From positions 868,001 through 932,000 of the forward strand of contig NZ_FOZD01000001.1 in the NCBI RefSeq assembly GCF_900113185.1: a stretch of DNA of 64,000 nt, given 5' to 3'. This DNA is from Agromyces sp. CF514 (GTDB lineage Bacteria > Actinomycetota > Actinomycetes > Actinomycetales > Microbacteriaceae). Each line of letters begins with the position of its first letter. Within the stretch, counting starts at the first letter, position 1. The translations under genes and the position numbers were made by a program. Below, one piece after another: positions 4,841-63,779 of the stretch. The notes beneath the pieces are model-generated. The model had not been told where the DNA came from and did no database searches. It saw only the letters and a list, made by a program, of their open reading frames with translations.

Positions 4841-7800
4841 GTGACGATGCACCCCGGCGCGAAGAGGCGCCCCGCTCGACCCGCGCTCGCCGTGGTCGCC
4901 GCCCTGATCCTGCTCGCGCTCGGAGCGGGGGTCGCGTTCGTGCTGACCGACGCGCTCGGCATCAGCACCGAGTCCGCCGAGATCCCGGTCGAGTCGTCGC
5001 ACTCGGTCGATGCCGCGGCAGCCGTGCCGCCGCCGGAGTTCACCAACGTCGCGGCACCGAACGCGCCGCGCGTCGTCGCGGCCGTCGACGAGCTCCGGGA
5101 CGCGGTGTCGGATGCCGCGGCCACCGACGGCACGGCGACCCTCGAGGTCGTCGCGGGCGACGGCGATCCGGCCGACGAGGCGTACGCGCTCGAGGGCACG
5201 GCGACCGCACTGCGCGTCGTGGCCGCGAGCGAGACCGGCGCCGTGCGCGGCGTCTACGACCTCGCCCAGGCGGTGCGCGACGGCCGCTCGACGACCGAGC
5301 ACCTGGGCGGGCTCGTCGAGTCGCGGCTCGGGTTCCGCATGGCGGACCTGGGCGCGGTCGGCGTCACGGTCGACGAGGCCGCGTGGGCGGCGGGCGACGA
5401 CTACTCGCACAACTCGAAGGCGTTCGAGGACGTGATCCTGCCCGATGCGCCGTACATCGACGAGGCGGCGCTCGACGTCGCACGCGAGGACTTCGACGCG
5501 TACGTCGGGCACCTGCTCGCCGAGGGGTACACCGCGATCGCGGTGCCCGGCCTGCTCGAGTACCTGACCTTCTCCGACGTCGGCGACGGCACCGAGGTCT
5601 ACGAGTCCGGTGACGAGCACGTGGCCCGCGCCCTCGCCATGCGCGACGCCTTCGGGCCGATGTGGCAGTCCGCTCGGGATGCCGGCCTGCAGGTGTTCCT
5701 GCGCACCGACATGCTCGTCGTGACGACCCCGCTCGAGGAGTACCTCACCGAGCGGTTCGGCTCGCTCGACACCGAGAACCCCGAGTTCTGGCAGGTCTAC
5801 GCGGCGGGCCTCGACGAGCTCTACCGCGAGATGCCCGCGATCGACGGCGTGCTCATCCGCATCGGCGAGGCCGGCCAGGTCTACGACCTGCCCGACTGGG
5901 ATTACCGCTCGGCGCTCGCCGTGACGACCGTCGACGCCGTGCAGGCGATGCTCACGACCCTGCTCGACCAGGCCGAGCGCGCCGACCGCGAGGTGATCTT
6001 CCGCACCTGGACGGTGGGCGTCGGCGCCGTCGGCGACCTGCACACGAACGCCGACTCGTACCGCACGGTGTTCGAGGGCATCGACTCCGACCGGCTCATC
6101 GTGTCGACCAAGTACTCGCTCGGCGACTTCTACAGCCACCTGCCGATCAACGACACGCTCGAGGTCGGCGACCAGCGCCGCATCATCGAGTTCCAGAGCC
6201 GCCGCGAGTTCGAGAACTTCGGCGCATGGCCGAACGACCTCGGCGACCTGTACGCGCAGACGCTCGACCGCCTCCTCGCCGCGAACCCGCACATCGAGGG
6301 CATCTGGACGTGGACGCAGGACGGCGGCCCGTGGCGTGCGGGTCCGCTCTCGCTCGAGCTGAAGGCGGGCTTCTGGCAGCTGGCGGAGCTGAACACCGAG
6401 CTCGCGGTGCGACTCGCGCGCGATCCGTCGCTGGACCCCGCCGAGGTCACGGCCGACTGGGCGAGGCGGTGGTTCTCGGATGACCCGTCGACCGTGCAGT
6501 CGATCGCCGACGCCATGGCCGATTCGCGCGAGGCCATCGCCGACGGGCTCTACATCGGCCCGTACGCCGAGCACCGCGTGCAGGCGATCGGCCTCGAGCC
6601 GCCGCCCATGATGTGGATCTTCGAGTGGGACATCCCGACCGGCGACAGCGCGGCGCTCGACGTGATCTACGCGATCGCGCGCGACGACCTCGACGAGGCG
6701 ATCGCGGGCGGGCCGCGGGCGCTGGAGGCCGTCGAGCGCATGCAGGAGCGCATCGAGGGCACGGATGCGGGCACGTGGAAGGATGCCGCGCTCCGCGACG
6801 CGTTCGTCGACTCGCTCGCCTACGAGCACAGCACGCTCGCCATGCTCGCCGACTACCGCGCCATGGTGCTGCGCAAGGCGCAGTGGCACGACACGCGGGA
6901 TGCCGCCGCCTTCGGCGCGTGGCAGGAGGCGAGGGCGGCGTGGCTCGAGTCCTCGGCCGCCCACGAACGCGACTACGCCGGTGACCCGTACCGCCCGGCG
7001 TACAACCTCACGGCCGCGCGGCTCGGGCTCGAGCGCGGCGATCGCGACCAGGCCATGGGCTGGGCCGCGGGAGCGAGCCTCGTGCTCGTGCTCGCATGGC
7101 TCGCCTACGGCGCCGCGGCCGGGTCGCCCCGGATCGGCCGATGGCGCGGCGCCCGGCTCGCGCGTGCGATGTGGGTCGCCGGCACCCGGCCCTGGCGGGC
7201 GCCCGAGGTCGTCGCGGAGCTCGGCCGGGTCGAGCGCGTGCTGCTCGTGGCGATCCCCGCCGTCGCGCTCGTGCTGAGCCGGTGCATCCTCACCTGGTTC
7301 GCCGCACCCGCGCACCTCGTGGTGACGCTCGGCGCGTGGCTCGTGTTCGGAGCCGTGGTGCTGCTCCTGGCACGCCTGCTCGGCGGCCGAGCAGGCGTCG
7401 CCCCGGTCGCCGCGGCCCTCGCCGGAACCGTGCTGCTGCGGGTCGCCCTGCTCTCGTTCGCGCTCGCCCCGACCGGGCCGGGCGGGTACTGGTTCGGGTT
7501 CTGGACAGACCCGGTCGCGCGCTCGGCGTACTCGACCGTCGCGTTCGCGCTGTTCGCCTGGGTGCTCGTGGCTGCGGCGTGGGCGCTCGCCCAGTCGATC
7601 GGCGCCAGACGGGCGATCGGGGTCGTGACGGCGGCGTGCGGCGCCGCGCTGGCAGCGATCGCCGGGCTCGTCGCGATCGTCGGCCTCGAGGCCGCGCTCA
7701 CGGCCTGGAACGACCAGATGGCGCTGCTGCCGTGGGGCCTCTCGCGCATCCTCGGCATCACGGTCTACCTCGACATCCCGGCGGATTCCGCCTGGTGGGC

Positions 7801-42888: not shown

Positions 42889-42926
42889 GCGGATGCCGCG
42901 GGCGGGCGCCTGCCCGCGGCATCCGC
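42889..42926 (+). terminator. terminator after the M20 dipeptidase gene
   Basis: A perfect 15-bp stem (42889-42903 with 42912-42926, arm GCGGATGCCGCGGGC) with an 8-nt loop lies 8 bp past the stop codon. Confidence 0.88.
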
Positions 42927-42954: not shown

Positions 42955-43007
42955 CGCGGACGCGAATGGTCGCTGCGCGCTTCGAATGGCGACCACTCGC
43001 GTCCGCG
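42955..43007. repeat. palindromic element A1, upstream of DUF559 gene 1
   Basis: 19-bp arms (42955-42973 with 42989-43007; 18 of 19 pair) enclose a 15-nt loop. The inner arm ends are GGTCGC and GCGACC. The outer arm word is GGACGCGAA. It lies 103 bp before the ATG of the nuclease-like gene. Confidence 0.9.
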
Positions 43008-43110
43008 CTCGGACGGTGCGCGGCCACGAGTGCTGGGGACAACCGCACGCGTCCCCACAGATCGTCGGATTCGACCGCGTGCGCAGGGATCGGTGCCGGA
43101 TGGTTGGGCG

Positions 43111-44007
43111 ATGCGCCCTCCCCGACCGCTCCCCGAGCAGCTCCGCTCGGCGCCCTTCGTCGTCGCCCTCGCCCTCGATGCAGGCGTTTCGCGTCGACGG
43201 CTCCGACACGATGCCCTCGCCCGCCCGTTCCACGGGGTGCGGTCGGCGACCGCCGTCGATACGGTTGAGTCGCGTGCGGTCGCCTACGCTGCGGCGATGG
43301 CGGGCGACCACGTCTTCTCGCACGCCACCGCGGCGCTCCTGCACGGCATGCCGCTTCCGCTCGCGGTCGAACGCGAGGTCCGCGTCCACGTGACGGCGCT
43401 CGCGCAGGGCCGCGCACCGCGGGGTCGAGGCGTGATCGGGCACTCCACGCGCGCCGAACCGGTCGTCACCGCGGTACGGGGCCTGGCGGTGCTCGGGCCG
43501 GCCGACACGTGGTGCTCGCTCGCGGGAATGCTCTCGCTCGACGATCTCGTCGCCGCGGGCGACCGCCTGGTCGGCCTGCCGGTCCCGCTCTCGAGCTTCG
43601 AGCTGATCGACGAGGCGATCGTTCGGCACGGACGCCGCCCAGGTCGCGCGAGGCTGCGGCTCGCCCGTGCGCAACTGCGGGCGAACTCGTACTCCCGACG
43701 CGAGAGCCTAGCGCGGTTGAGTCTTGTCCGAGCGGGTCTGCCCGAGCCCGAACTGGTCGCCATCCTGCACCTGCGGTCGGGCCGAAGCACGAAGGGAGAT
43801 CTCGTCTTCAGACGGCACAGGGTGCTGGTCGAGTACGACGGCGATCAGCATCGCACCGACGACCGGCAGTGGGCTACGGACGTCTCGCGTCTGAACGACC
43901 TCGTCGCGGACGGTTGGATCGTCATCCGCATGACGAAGCGGATGTCGCGCGCCGAGCTCGTGGCTCGGGTCATCCGTGCCCTCGAGGACCGGGGCTGGCG
44001 TCCCTGA
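43111..44007 (+). CDS. DUF559/Vsr-like endonuclease, copy 1
   Basis: The 298-residue product has an N-terminal region of AbiEi-like style (GVSRRRLRHDALARPFHGVR, then HVFSHATAALLHGMPLP) and a C-terminal PD-(D/E)XK nuclease domain. Likely catalytic residues are Glu in SRRESLARL, Asp in KGDLVF and Glu in VLVEYDGDQH; RHRVLVEYDGDQHRT is the DUF559 hallmark. The paralogue at 62802-63698 has exactly the same length and aligned N-terminus (MRxPxPLP), which fixes the start at ATG 43111. No good ribosome binding site is seen. Palindromes flank the gene on both sides. Function is unknown; mobile or repeat-processing nuclease is the hypothesis. Confidence 0.85.
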   Translation: MRPPRPLPEQLRSAPFVVALALDAGVSRRRLRHDALARPFHGVRSATAVDTVESRAVAYAAAMAGDHVFSHATAALLHGMPLPLAVEREVRVHVTALAQGRAPRGRGVIGHSTRAEPVVTAVRGLAVLGPADTWCSLAGMLSLDDLVAAGDRLVGLPVPLSSFELIDEAIVRHGRRPGRARLRLARAQLRANSYSRRESLARLSLVRAGLPEPELVAILHLRSGRSTKGDLVFRRHRVLVEYDGDQHRTDDRQWATDVSRLNDLVADGWIVIRMTKRMSRAELVARVIRALEDRGWRP

Positions 44008-44020
44008 GCCGCGCCGTGCA

Positions 44021-44069
44021 CGGACGCGAACGGCCGCCACCTCGTCGGGATGGCGACCATTCGGGTCCG
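44021..44069. repeat. palindromic element A2, downstream of DUF559 gene 1
   Basis: 18-bp arms (44021-44038 with 44052-44069; 15 of 18 pair, two of the misfits being G-U compatible). Counting from the shared GGYCGC/GCGACC ends the loop is 15 nt. It starts 13 bp after the stop codon. Confidence 0.8.
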
Positions 44070-44090
44070 CGCTGCGCTGGCCCGATCGCC

Positions 44091-44145
44091 GCGCGGACGC
44101 GGGTGGTCGTGATTCTGTCGAGATGGCGGCCATCTTCGTCCGCGC
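44091..44145. repeat. palindromic element A3, degenerate extra copy
   Basis: 20-bp arms (44091-44110 with 44126-44145; 15 of 20 pair) enclose a 15-nt loop ending GAGATG, like A2 (GGGATG). The outer word is again GCGCGGACG. The whole 199-bp gap 44008-44206 is filled mainly by A2 and A3. Confidence 0.75.
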
Positions 44146-44206
44146 TGGCTGCGGCCGGGGATGAGCATGCGTGCGAGTGCGGCCCGACAAGGGAACGCGC
44201 ACGCGG

Positions 44207-62618: not shown

Positions 62619-62687
62619 CCCCGTCGTTCAGTCACGTGTGGTCGCTTCGCGCGCCGGAGAGCGACCACAAGTGACTGAACGACGGGG
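62619..62687. repeat. palindromic element B1, upstream of DUF559 gene 2
   Basis: 27-bp arms (62619-62645 with 62661-62687; 26 of 27 pair) enclose a 15-nt loop. The inner ends are GTGGTCGC and GCGACCAC, as in A1. The outer arm word is GTCGTTCAGTCAC. It lies 114 bp before the ATG of the nuclease-like gene. Confidence 0.93.
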
Positions 62688-62801: not shown

Positions 62802-63698
62802 ATGCGTCGACCGACTCCGCTTCCGGTATCCCTCGTCGATCGGCCGTTCACGGCTCCTGAGGCGATCGCATCCGGGGTTTCGCGGCGCAGGCTCCGCAGC
62901 GGCGACCTGGCCCGACCGTTCCGTGGAGTCCGGGCGCCCCGCGCCGATGAGGCAGTCGCGCATCGGTGCGCCGCGTACGCCACCGTCATGCCCCCCGGCC
63001 AGGTCTTCTCGCACGCCACGGCAGCGATGCTGCTCGGCCTCCCGTTGCCGCGCGCCGTCGAACGCGACGCACGCGTGCACGTGACCGCTCTCGAAGGCGG
63101 CCGGGCACCGAGGCGGAGCGGCGTCGCCGGATACTCCACGACGGGGCATCCGTTGGTCCGGCAGGTTCGCGGGCTCCGCGTGCTGGCACCGGCCGATGCC
63201 TGGTGCTCGCTCGCGGGTCTGCTCCGACATGACGACCTCGTCGCCGCCGGTGACCGGCTCGTGGGCCTGCCGTCGCCGATGGCGACGTTCGACGAGATCG
63301 ACCGGGCGATCGTGCGTCACGGCAACCGAGCGGGCGCGGCGAAGCTGCGCCGAGCTCGGGCGGACCTCCGCGCGGATTCCTACTCGCGCCCCGAGACGCT
63401 CGCGCGCCTCGCCCTGATCCGCGCGGGCCTCCCCGAACCCGAACCGAATGGGGTCATCGAGCTCCGATCCGGTCGCCGCACGCGCGGAGACCTCGTGTTC
63501 CGCGCCTATCGGGTGCTCGTCGAGTATGACGGCGAGCAGCATCGGCTCGACCTCGAGCAATGGACGACGGATGTCACGAGGCTCAACGACCTCGCCGCCG
63601 ACGGCTGGCTCGTGATCAGGGCGACGAAACGGATGCCCCGCGCTGAACTCGTGGCGCGCGCGGAATCCGCGCTGCTCGAACGAGGATGGCGGCGCTGA
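62802..63698 (+). CDS. DUF559/Vsr-like endonuclease, copy 2
   Basis: The 298-residue product is a paralogue of 43111-44007, the same length without large gaps. Shared blocks include GVSRRRLR, QVFSHATAAMLLGLPLP, LAPADAWCSLAGLL, HDDLVAAGDRLVGLP and the nuclease core SRPETLARLALIRAGLPEPE, RGDLVFRAYRVLVEYDGEQH. Putative catalytic residues (Glu, Asp, Glu) are all kept, which argues for selection on activity. ATG 62802 gives MRRPTPLP, aligned with copy 1. No clear ribosome binding site is seen. It is flanked by B1 and B2. Confidence 0.87.
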   Translation: MRRPTPLPVSLVDRPFTAPEAIASGVSRRRLRSGDLARPFRGVRAPRADEAVAHRCAAYATVMPPGQVFSHATAAMLLGLPLPRAVERDARVHVTALEGGRAPRRSGVAGYSTTGHPLVRQVRGLRVLAPADAWCSLAGLLRHDDLVAAGDRLVGLPSPMATFDEIDRAIVRHGNRAGAAKLRRARADLRADSYSRPETLARLALIRAGLPEPEPNGVIELRSGRRTRGDLVFRAYRVLVEYDGEQHRLDLEQWTTDVTRLNDLAADGWLVIRATKRMPRAELVARAESALLERGWRR

Positions 63699-63714: not shown

Positions 63715-63779
63715 CCGTCGTTCGGTCACTCGTGGTCGCTTCGATGCGGGTATTCCGGCCACGGGCGACCGAACGATGG
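63715..63779. repeat. palindromic element B2, downstream of DUF559 gene 2
   Basis: 25-bp arms (63715-63739 with 63755-63779; about 20 of 25 pair, most misfits G-U compatible) enclose a 15-nt loop. The left arm starts CCGTCGTTCGGTCAC, like B1. It starts 16 bp after the stop codon. Confidence 0.85.

Follow-up and report, generated by a model that had tools for sequence, protein, structure and literature searches.

We find that genes for DUF559-family proteins lie between matched pairs of palindromic (dyad) elements, that the type of palindrome follows the sequence of the protein, and that further copies of the A type and of eight other types searched are dispersed, mostly in genomes that carry the cognate gene. 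We favour, with a probability of about 0.6, the interpretation that these are two-part units, each consisting of an EDxHD/Vsr-like nuclease and its own dyad elements, in which both binding and cutting are inferred.

The first unit occupies positions 42955–44146 of the window (the whole 64,000-nucleotide stretch of DNA analysed). The upstream dyad element A1 (42955–43007; no strand is assigned to any of the elements) has a 15-nt core between 19-nt arms that pair at 18 of 19 positions. A gap of 103 bp separates its end from the ATG (43111) of a 298-aa DUF559 gene on the plus strand (43111–44007), whose product combines an AbiEi-like N-terminal region with a C-terminal EDxHD/Vsr-like nuclease. 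The matched part of the downstream element A2 (44019–44073) starts 13 bp past the stop codon, and a second downstream copy, A3 (44092–44146), is more weakly paired, with arms that are 79% complementary. The three elements form a single family, A2 and A3 being 75% and 66% identical to A1. The neighbours of the gene are what we take, from reading the translations, to be an M20 dipeptidase-like gene and a VOC-like gene. An earlier sequence-only reading had described this layout, including the spacings of 103 and 13 bp and the decay of A3; the layout held and its coordinates are confirmed.

The inner core TGGTCGC-N-GCGACCA occurs twice in the window, compared to 0.04 occurrences expected by chance, and the second match (62639–62667) precedes another DUF559 gene; thus the inner core located a paralogue. 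This gene (62802–63698, plus strand, 298 aa) is 66% identical to the first and lies between the elements B-left (62619–62687) and B-right (63715–63779), which match each other at 90% over 30 nt. B-left has the inner TGGTCGC core in common with the A type, while the outer arms of the B elements are unrelated to it, and no solo copies of the B type were found in this genome (G000). A third homologue, 40% identical and with its own matched palindromes of GTCGCAGATGGCGAC type, is represented by L032 (G000:C1:1805257-1806105) and L155; the gene after the L032 unit reads as an enolase, and a similar unit is present in G004. No matched pair was seen at four more genes of the DUF559 family in this genome (L033, L034, L037 and L039), but their reading frames were chosen with uncertainty and we do not count this as evidence.

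The arrangement is far more general than the window shows. For 95 homologues from the same genus, Agromyces, and from Herbiconiux, Subtercola and Agreia, we aligned the 350 bp before the gene locally to the 350 bp after it, and obtained a median score of 48, compared to 26 for 370 pseudo-genes slid along the window. A flank match scoring at least 36 was found for 69 of the 95 genes and at 7 of 367 control positions, and the same match with a palindrome on both sides for 49 of the 95 genes and at none of the 367 control positions. In the listed matched pairs, the left and right elements agree within a locus and the sequences vary between loci. The downstream element starts a median of 11.5 nt past the stop codon, and the matching upstream copy lies ∼106 nt before the start. 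The family is detected in 217 of 395 genomes across the class Actinomycetes, and matched pairs (score ≥41) are present at 23 of 34 class-wide loci from several families; the gene-between-palindromes arrangement thus reaches across the class. The sequence-only reading had named two observations that would count against it. One of these, homologues without flanking palindromes, is partly met, since 26 of the 95 relatives have no matched pair at threshold. The other, palindromes at the same density beside unrelated genes, was not borne out: unrelated genes do adjoin the dispersed copies, as they do with REPs, but matched pairs enclosing a gene were seen for DUF559 genes and at none of the control positions, and copies of each type are found chiefly where a genome has the gene that belongs to it. 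We rejected the idea that this is mainly a plasmid or phage gene, having found merely five plasmid records and one phage record. The phage record (MT837503.1, 6.7 kb, from human faeces) encodes a full-length homologue of 33% identity at 4956–5972.

The similarity of the elements covaries with the identity of the proteins (Mantel r 0.55, matched by 0 of 2000 permutations). Nearly all pairs of proteins more than 70% identical share a palindrome type, and almost none do so below 55% identity. In same-type pairs, identity is raised along the whole length of the protein, somewhat more at residues 101–130 and 261–298; specificity confined to one stretch of the protein is therefore not established.

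Copies of the palindromes are also dispersed away from the gene. There are ∼13 A elements genome-wide, including about 10 dispersed copies, and the strict A form occurs seven times in this genome, compared to zero for a reversed-pattern control. Across 60 genomes, strict A elements are found in eight and the reversed pattern in none; a homologue at 54% identity or more is present in 13 of these genomes, 6 of which have A elements, compared to 2 of the 47 others (P = 7.6e-4). Eight further types, searched across the same number of genomes, all have dispersed copies, mostly in carriers of the cognate gene. The per-type counts are lower bounds, with strands merged. Type 1 occurs in at least 9 places in the carrier G041 and at least 2 in G040, type 2 in at least 7 places, all in G006, and type 6 in at least 8 in G053 and at least 3 in G021, both of them carriers. 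Type 7 occurs in at least 7 places in G014 and at least 4 in G035 (both carriers), and in at least 5 across three genomes without a type-7 unit, while types 3, 4, 5 and 8 follow the same pattern with a few copies in non-carriers. Solo elements without a detected cognate gene were seen for the A type in G004 and G042 and for type 7 in G046. In another family, a further type was detected in 6 of 11 genomes of one genus, at 2–9 copies each, and in none of five genomes from outside it. Thus the search for palindrome copies that the sequence-only reading had proposed as a check did find them, with each type concentrated where its gene is.

The solo elements are mostly intergenic and often 3′ of genes; based on rough gene calls, 17 lie between convergent genes, 22 between tandem genes, 3 between divergent genes and 3 in a called reading frame, with 5 unresolved. 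We considered that solos might be scars of full units and rejected this, as no DUF559 remnant was detected within 1.5 kb of 50 solos; nor did the flanks of this genome's own solos give any convincing match to unit loci.

The elements share a geometry even where their sequences are unrelated. When 88 flanking elements of unrelated sequence were centred on their axis, pairing was random within ∼6 nt of the axis, 73–98% at about 8–27 nt and random again beyond ∼31 nt; that is, a random core between paired arms, about 56–60 bp in total. The A-type elements of the genome with intact inner arms have a core of exactly 15 nt in every case (matches with spacings of 8, 23 and 28 were judged to be chance). 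Such a geometry suits a site of about 56–60 bp bound by a dimer better than it suits a free hairpin. At one orthologous solo site, paired arm changes (CAGAT/ATCTG in L013 versus CGAAT/ATTCG in G008) may fit either of these. The orientation of the left element relative to the right is random (35 direct, 34 inverted). A search for structured RNA gave only weak hairpin matches to miRNA families, far below gathering scores. The palindromes of the L175 and L168 units, which are built on AAGTCGGGCAA with a short TCATGA centre and are partly tandem-doubled, differ in geometry from the 15-nt core type.

The arms and the core behave differently. Among copies within a genome, the arm columns are 90–99% conserved and the 15-nt cores 59–71%, with core length constant; in G006, for example, seven copies have an arm conservation of 99% and every core is different. 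Similarly, at orthologous sites the arms have 20 mismatches in 216 positions and the cores 22 in 90 (P = 8.5e-4). Copying of a whole element would carry its core along. Since the arms are nearly identical and the cores completely different, simple whole-element copying does not explain the pattern; either the arms are kept by selection or conversion, or the core is not copied.

The protein is likely to be an AbiEi-like DNA-binding region joined to an EDxHD/Vsr-like nuclease, although both the binding and the cutting are inferred. The Pfam scan returned DUF559/MTES_1575; the DUF559 (PF04480) match is marginal, at 20.8 bits against a gathering score of 20.6, and the paralogue matches at 20.6 bits with neighbours included in the frame. 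No transposase domain (Transposase_17) was present in the scan, and the HxH motif is also absent. Seven residues (E198, D230, E241, Y242, H247, D257 and R260) do not vary among the 95 relatives, and the invariance of the catalytic set argues that the enzyme is active. The gene is under purifying selection, with dN/dS of 0.14–0.28 over eight pairs. A single-sequence AlphaFold model was discarded (pLDDT 44) and a model from an eight-row alignment was used (pLDDT 84.9). With this model, Foldseek reported nothing at E below 0.001; the relevant matches were to PvuRts1I, AbaSI and the catalytic domain of I-Bth0305I (3r3p; probability 0.92, TM 0.65 by target length, with a weak E of 0.38). According to a review, the homing endonuclease I-Bth0305I forms a dimer on a target of nearly 60 bp (PMC3943268), which is the size of the elements described here. 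PADLOC matched residues 16–133 to AbiEi (E 1.6e-4), and Pfam AbiEi_4 was matched in one of eight relatives; no defence system was found beyond this weak AbiEi match.

Both the unit and the solo elements are variably present at orthologous sites. The gap between a padR-like gene and a gene denoted ‘bright’ holds the B unit in G000, a unit of B type in G004 (whose contig stops just upstream of the unit, so that the padR side is unseen), a unit with unrelated palindromes in G008 and a reversed unit in G047, while neither gene nor palindrome is found in this gap in G044, G027, G020, G016, G050 and others. Units also occupy other gaps in this neighbourhood. At two solo sites, L003 and L005, the element is present in G000 and G004 and missing in G044/G008 or G040, and L016 is occupied in G000 only, among six genomes. 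At the L005 site, G044 has a different palindrome in place of the A type, and the best match of that palindrome among the 95 units is the unit of G044 itself (L161; score 58, with the next at 30). This presence and absence of units and solos, and the replacement of types at the same gap, argue for mobility or turnover. The empty orthologous sites showed no target duplication and no clean ends. Thus a comparison of insertion sites, also proposed by the sequence-only reading, found variable presence and no clean insertion with defined ends, and the self-spreading option that it had offered beside a domesticated one is not shown. In G037 a unit (L188) is decaying: 61 codons from the start of the gene and 55 from its end are all that is left, and only a partial palindrome is seen alongside; the element may fade along with the gene.

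In the interpretation we favour, a dimer of the protein would bind a single element. Each of its subunits would read one of the two conserved arms, the catalytic domains would lie above the variable core, and the DNA would be cut or nicked within the core or close to it. The flanking pair would turn the gene and its elements into a cassette, solo elements would be non-autonomous satellites, as REPs are to RAYTs, and elements would be spread or maintained through the repair of breaks. How recognition leads to spread is unsettled; it may involve conversion or copying of arms by break repair, selection for sites useful to the host, or both. Against this reading stand the 26 of 95 relatives without a matched pair, the Foldseek E of 0.38, the near-identical arms around differing cores, the empty sites lacking target duplication or clean ends, the solos in genomes with no detected cognate gene, and the lack of any binding or cutting data. 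A bolder version, which we consider rather more apt to fail than to hold, is that an EDxHD nuclease recognises the arms of its own multi-copy dyad sites and, through the repair of breaks, both spreads and rewrites them, as a new selfish or domesticated class, widespread in Actinomycetes, in which the core is unspecified and the specificities of gene and site switch together. If this were true, the system would be convergent on REP/RAYT without any transposase.

An alternative that remains possible is domesticated site-binding, in which the protein binds, and perhaps nicks, dispersed dyads for the host, with selection rather than spread keeping the arms; suggested roles are chromosome organisation, transcription ends or repair. 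The conservation of arms while cores drift, both among copies and at orthologous sites, the dN/dS of 0.14–0.28 and the small number of solos between divergent genes (3, versus 17 convergent and 22 tandem) are all in its favour. However, the unit is patchy and without a fixed locus, types are replaced wholesale between species whose neighbouring genes are 93% identical, and binding alone needs no invariant nuclease site.

Two further explanations fare less well. We think it unlikely that the unit is a homing cassette of switching specificity, in which cassettes swap at common gaps by break repair between flanking genes and solos are side products. The gap upstream of ‘bright’ does hold units with unrelated palindromes in different species, and the EDxHD fold may be common to the homing enzyme I-Bth0305I, if only by that weak match, but the empty sites have no palindrome or other recognisable target, and classical homing does not predict dispersed solos. 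Least likely is a reading of the palindromes as ordinary transcription terminators or 3′ hairpins that surround the gene by chance, as might be supposed from the short distance between stop codon and downstream element (median 11.5 nt) and from the frequent position of solos 3′ of genes. Against this, the gene has a matching copy ∼106 nt before its start as well, and the core of the A family is fixed at 15 nt; moreover, palindrome type follows protein sequence and such pairs occur at 0 of 367 control positions, and these last two results largely refute it.

Compared to known systems, our favoured two-part unit is closest in organisation to REP/RAYT (the REPtron). Both have palindromes on the two sides of a gene and dispersed intergenic copies, and in both the repeat type tracks the protein type; by the published description, a RAYT gene invariably lies between two REPs in inverted orientation, and flanking repeats change jointly with palindromy kept between orthologues (PMC2817692). 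However, the DUF559 units use an EDxHD/PD-(D/E)XK-like nuclease where the RAYT is a Y1 HUH transposase; the GTAG (GT(A/G)G) head is found at 0 of 176 outer ends; the elements are about 56–60 bp with a variable 15-nt core, while REPs are 20–40 bp; flanking orientation is random (35:34) where REPs are always inverted; and a genome has about 5–13 copies, where REPs number more than 100. The organisation is thus common to both, but the enzyme, the head and the orientation do not meet the definition, and we describe the unit as REP/RAYT-like in its working without membership; the sequence-only proposal, in which a PD-(D/E)XK nuclease takes the place of the transposase in a unit of REP/RAYT kind, is supported as organisation only. 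CGTC-tagged REPs have been reported without association to transposase genes (PMC3733652), and their partner might be a DUF559-type nuclease.

Likeness to other systems is partial. The unit may resemble the EDxHD homing endonuclease I-Bth0305I in catalytic-domain fold and acidic/His catalytic residues (on the weak match above), and the reported size of the dimer target is similar, but the DUF559 gene is intergenic, outside any intron or intein, it is flanked by elements that are palindromic and present in many copies, and its product has the AbiEi-like N-terminal region. That region matches AbiEi antitoxins of type IV toxin-antitoxin systems, and known AbiEi proteins bind inverted repeats; in contrast, the C-terminal half of the DUF559 protein is an inferred nuclease, and no AbiEii toxin gene was found adjoining the gene. 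MITEs are likewise small dispersed dyad elements that need a protein in trans, but here there is no transposase, no target duplication was seen and the core is not common between copies. No paper that ties DUF559 genes to palindromes was found in the open-access literature searched, a scope that left out most subscription papers and bioRxiv preprints, and the novelty of the link is provisional.

DUF559 proteins are common, and to our knowledge no function has been assigned to them. The palindromes provide a testable candidate DNA target for each of hundreds of these proteins, and together they form a large natural collection in which nucleases and their sites change specificity. The REP/RAYT arrangement would prove to have arisen with an unrelated enzyme. 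A concrete question is also raised, namely how elements come to be copied or maintained when their arms are nearly identical and their cores, though fixed in length, are unrelated. As a separate observation, the 10-mer GCGGCATCCG occurs 42 times in the 64-kb window (for example at 42890–42925), compared to ∼1 expected from dinucleotide shuffles, and recurs in flanks from other Agromyces; it may be a genome-wide signature motif.
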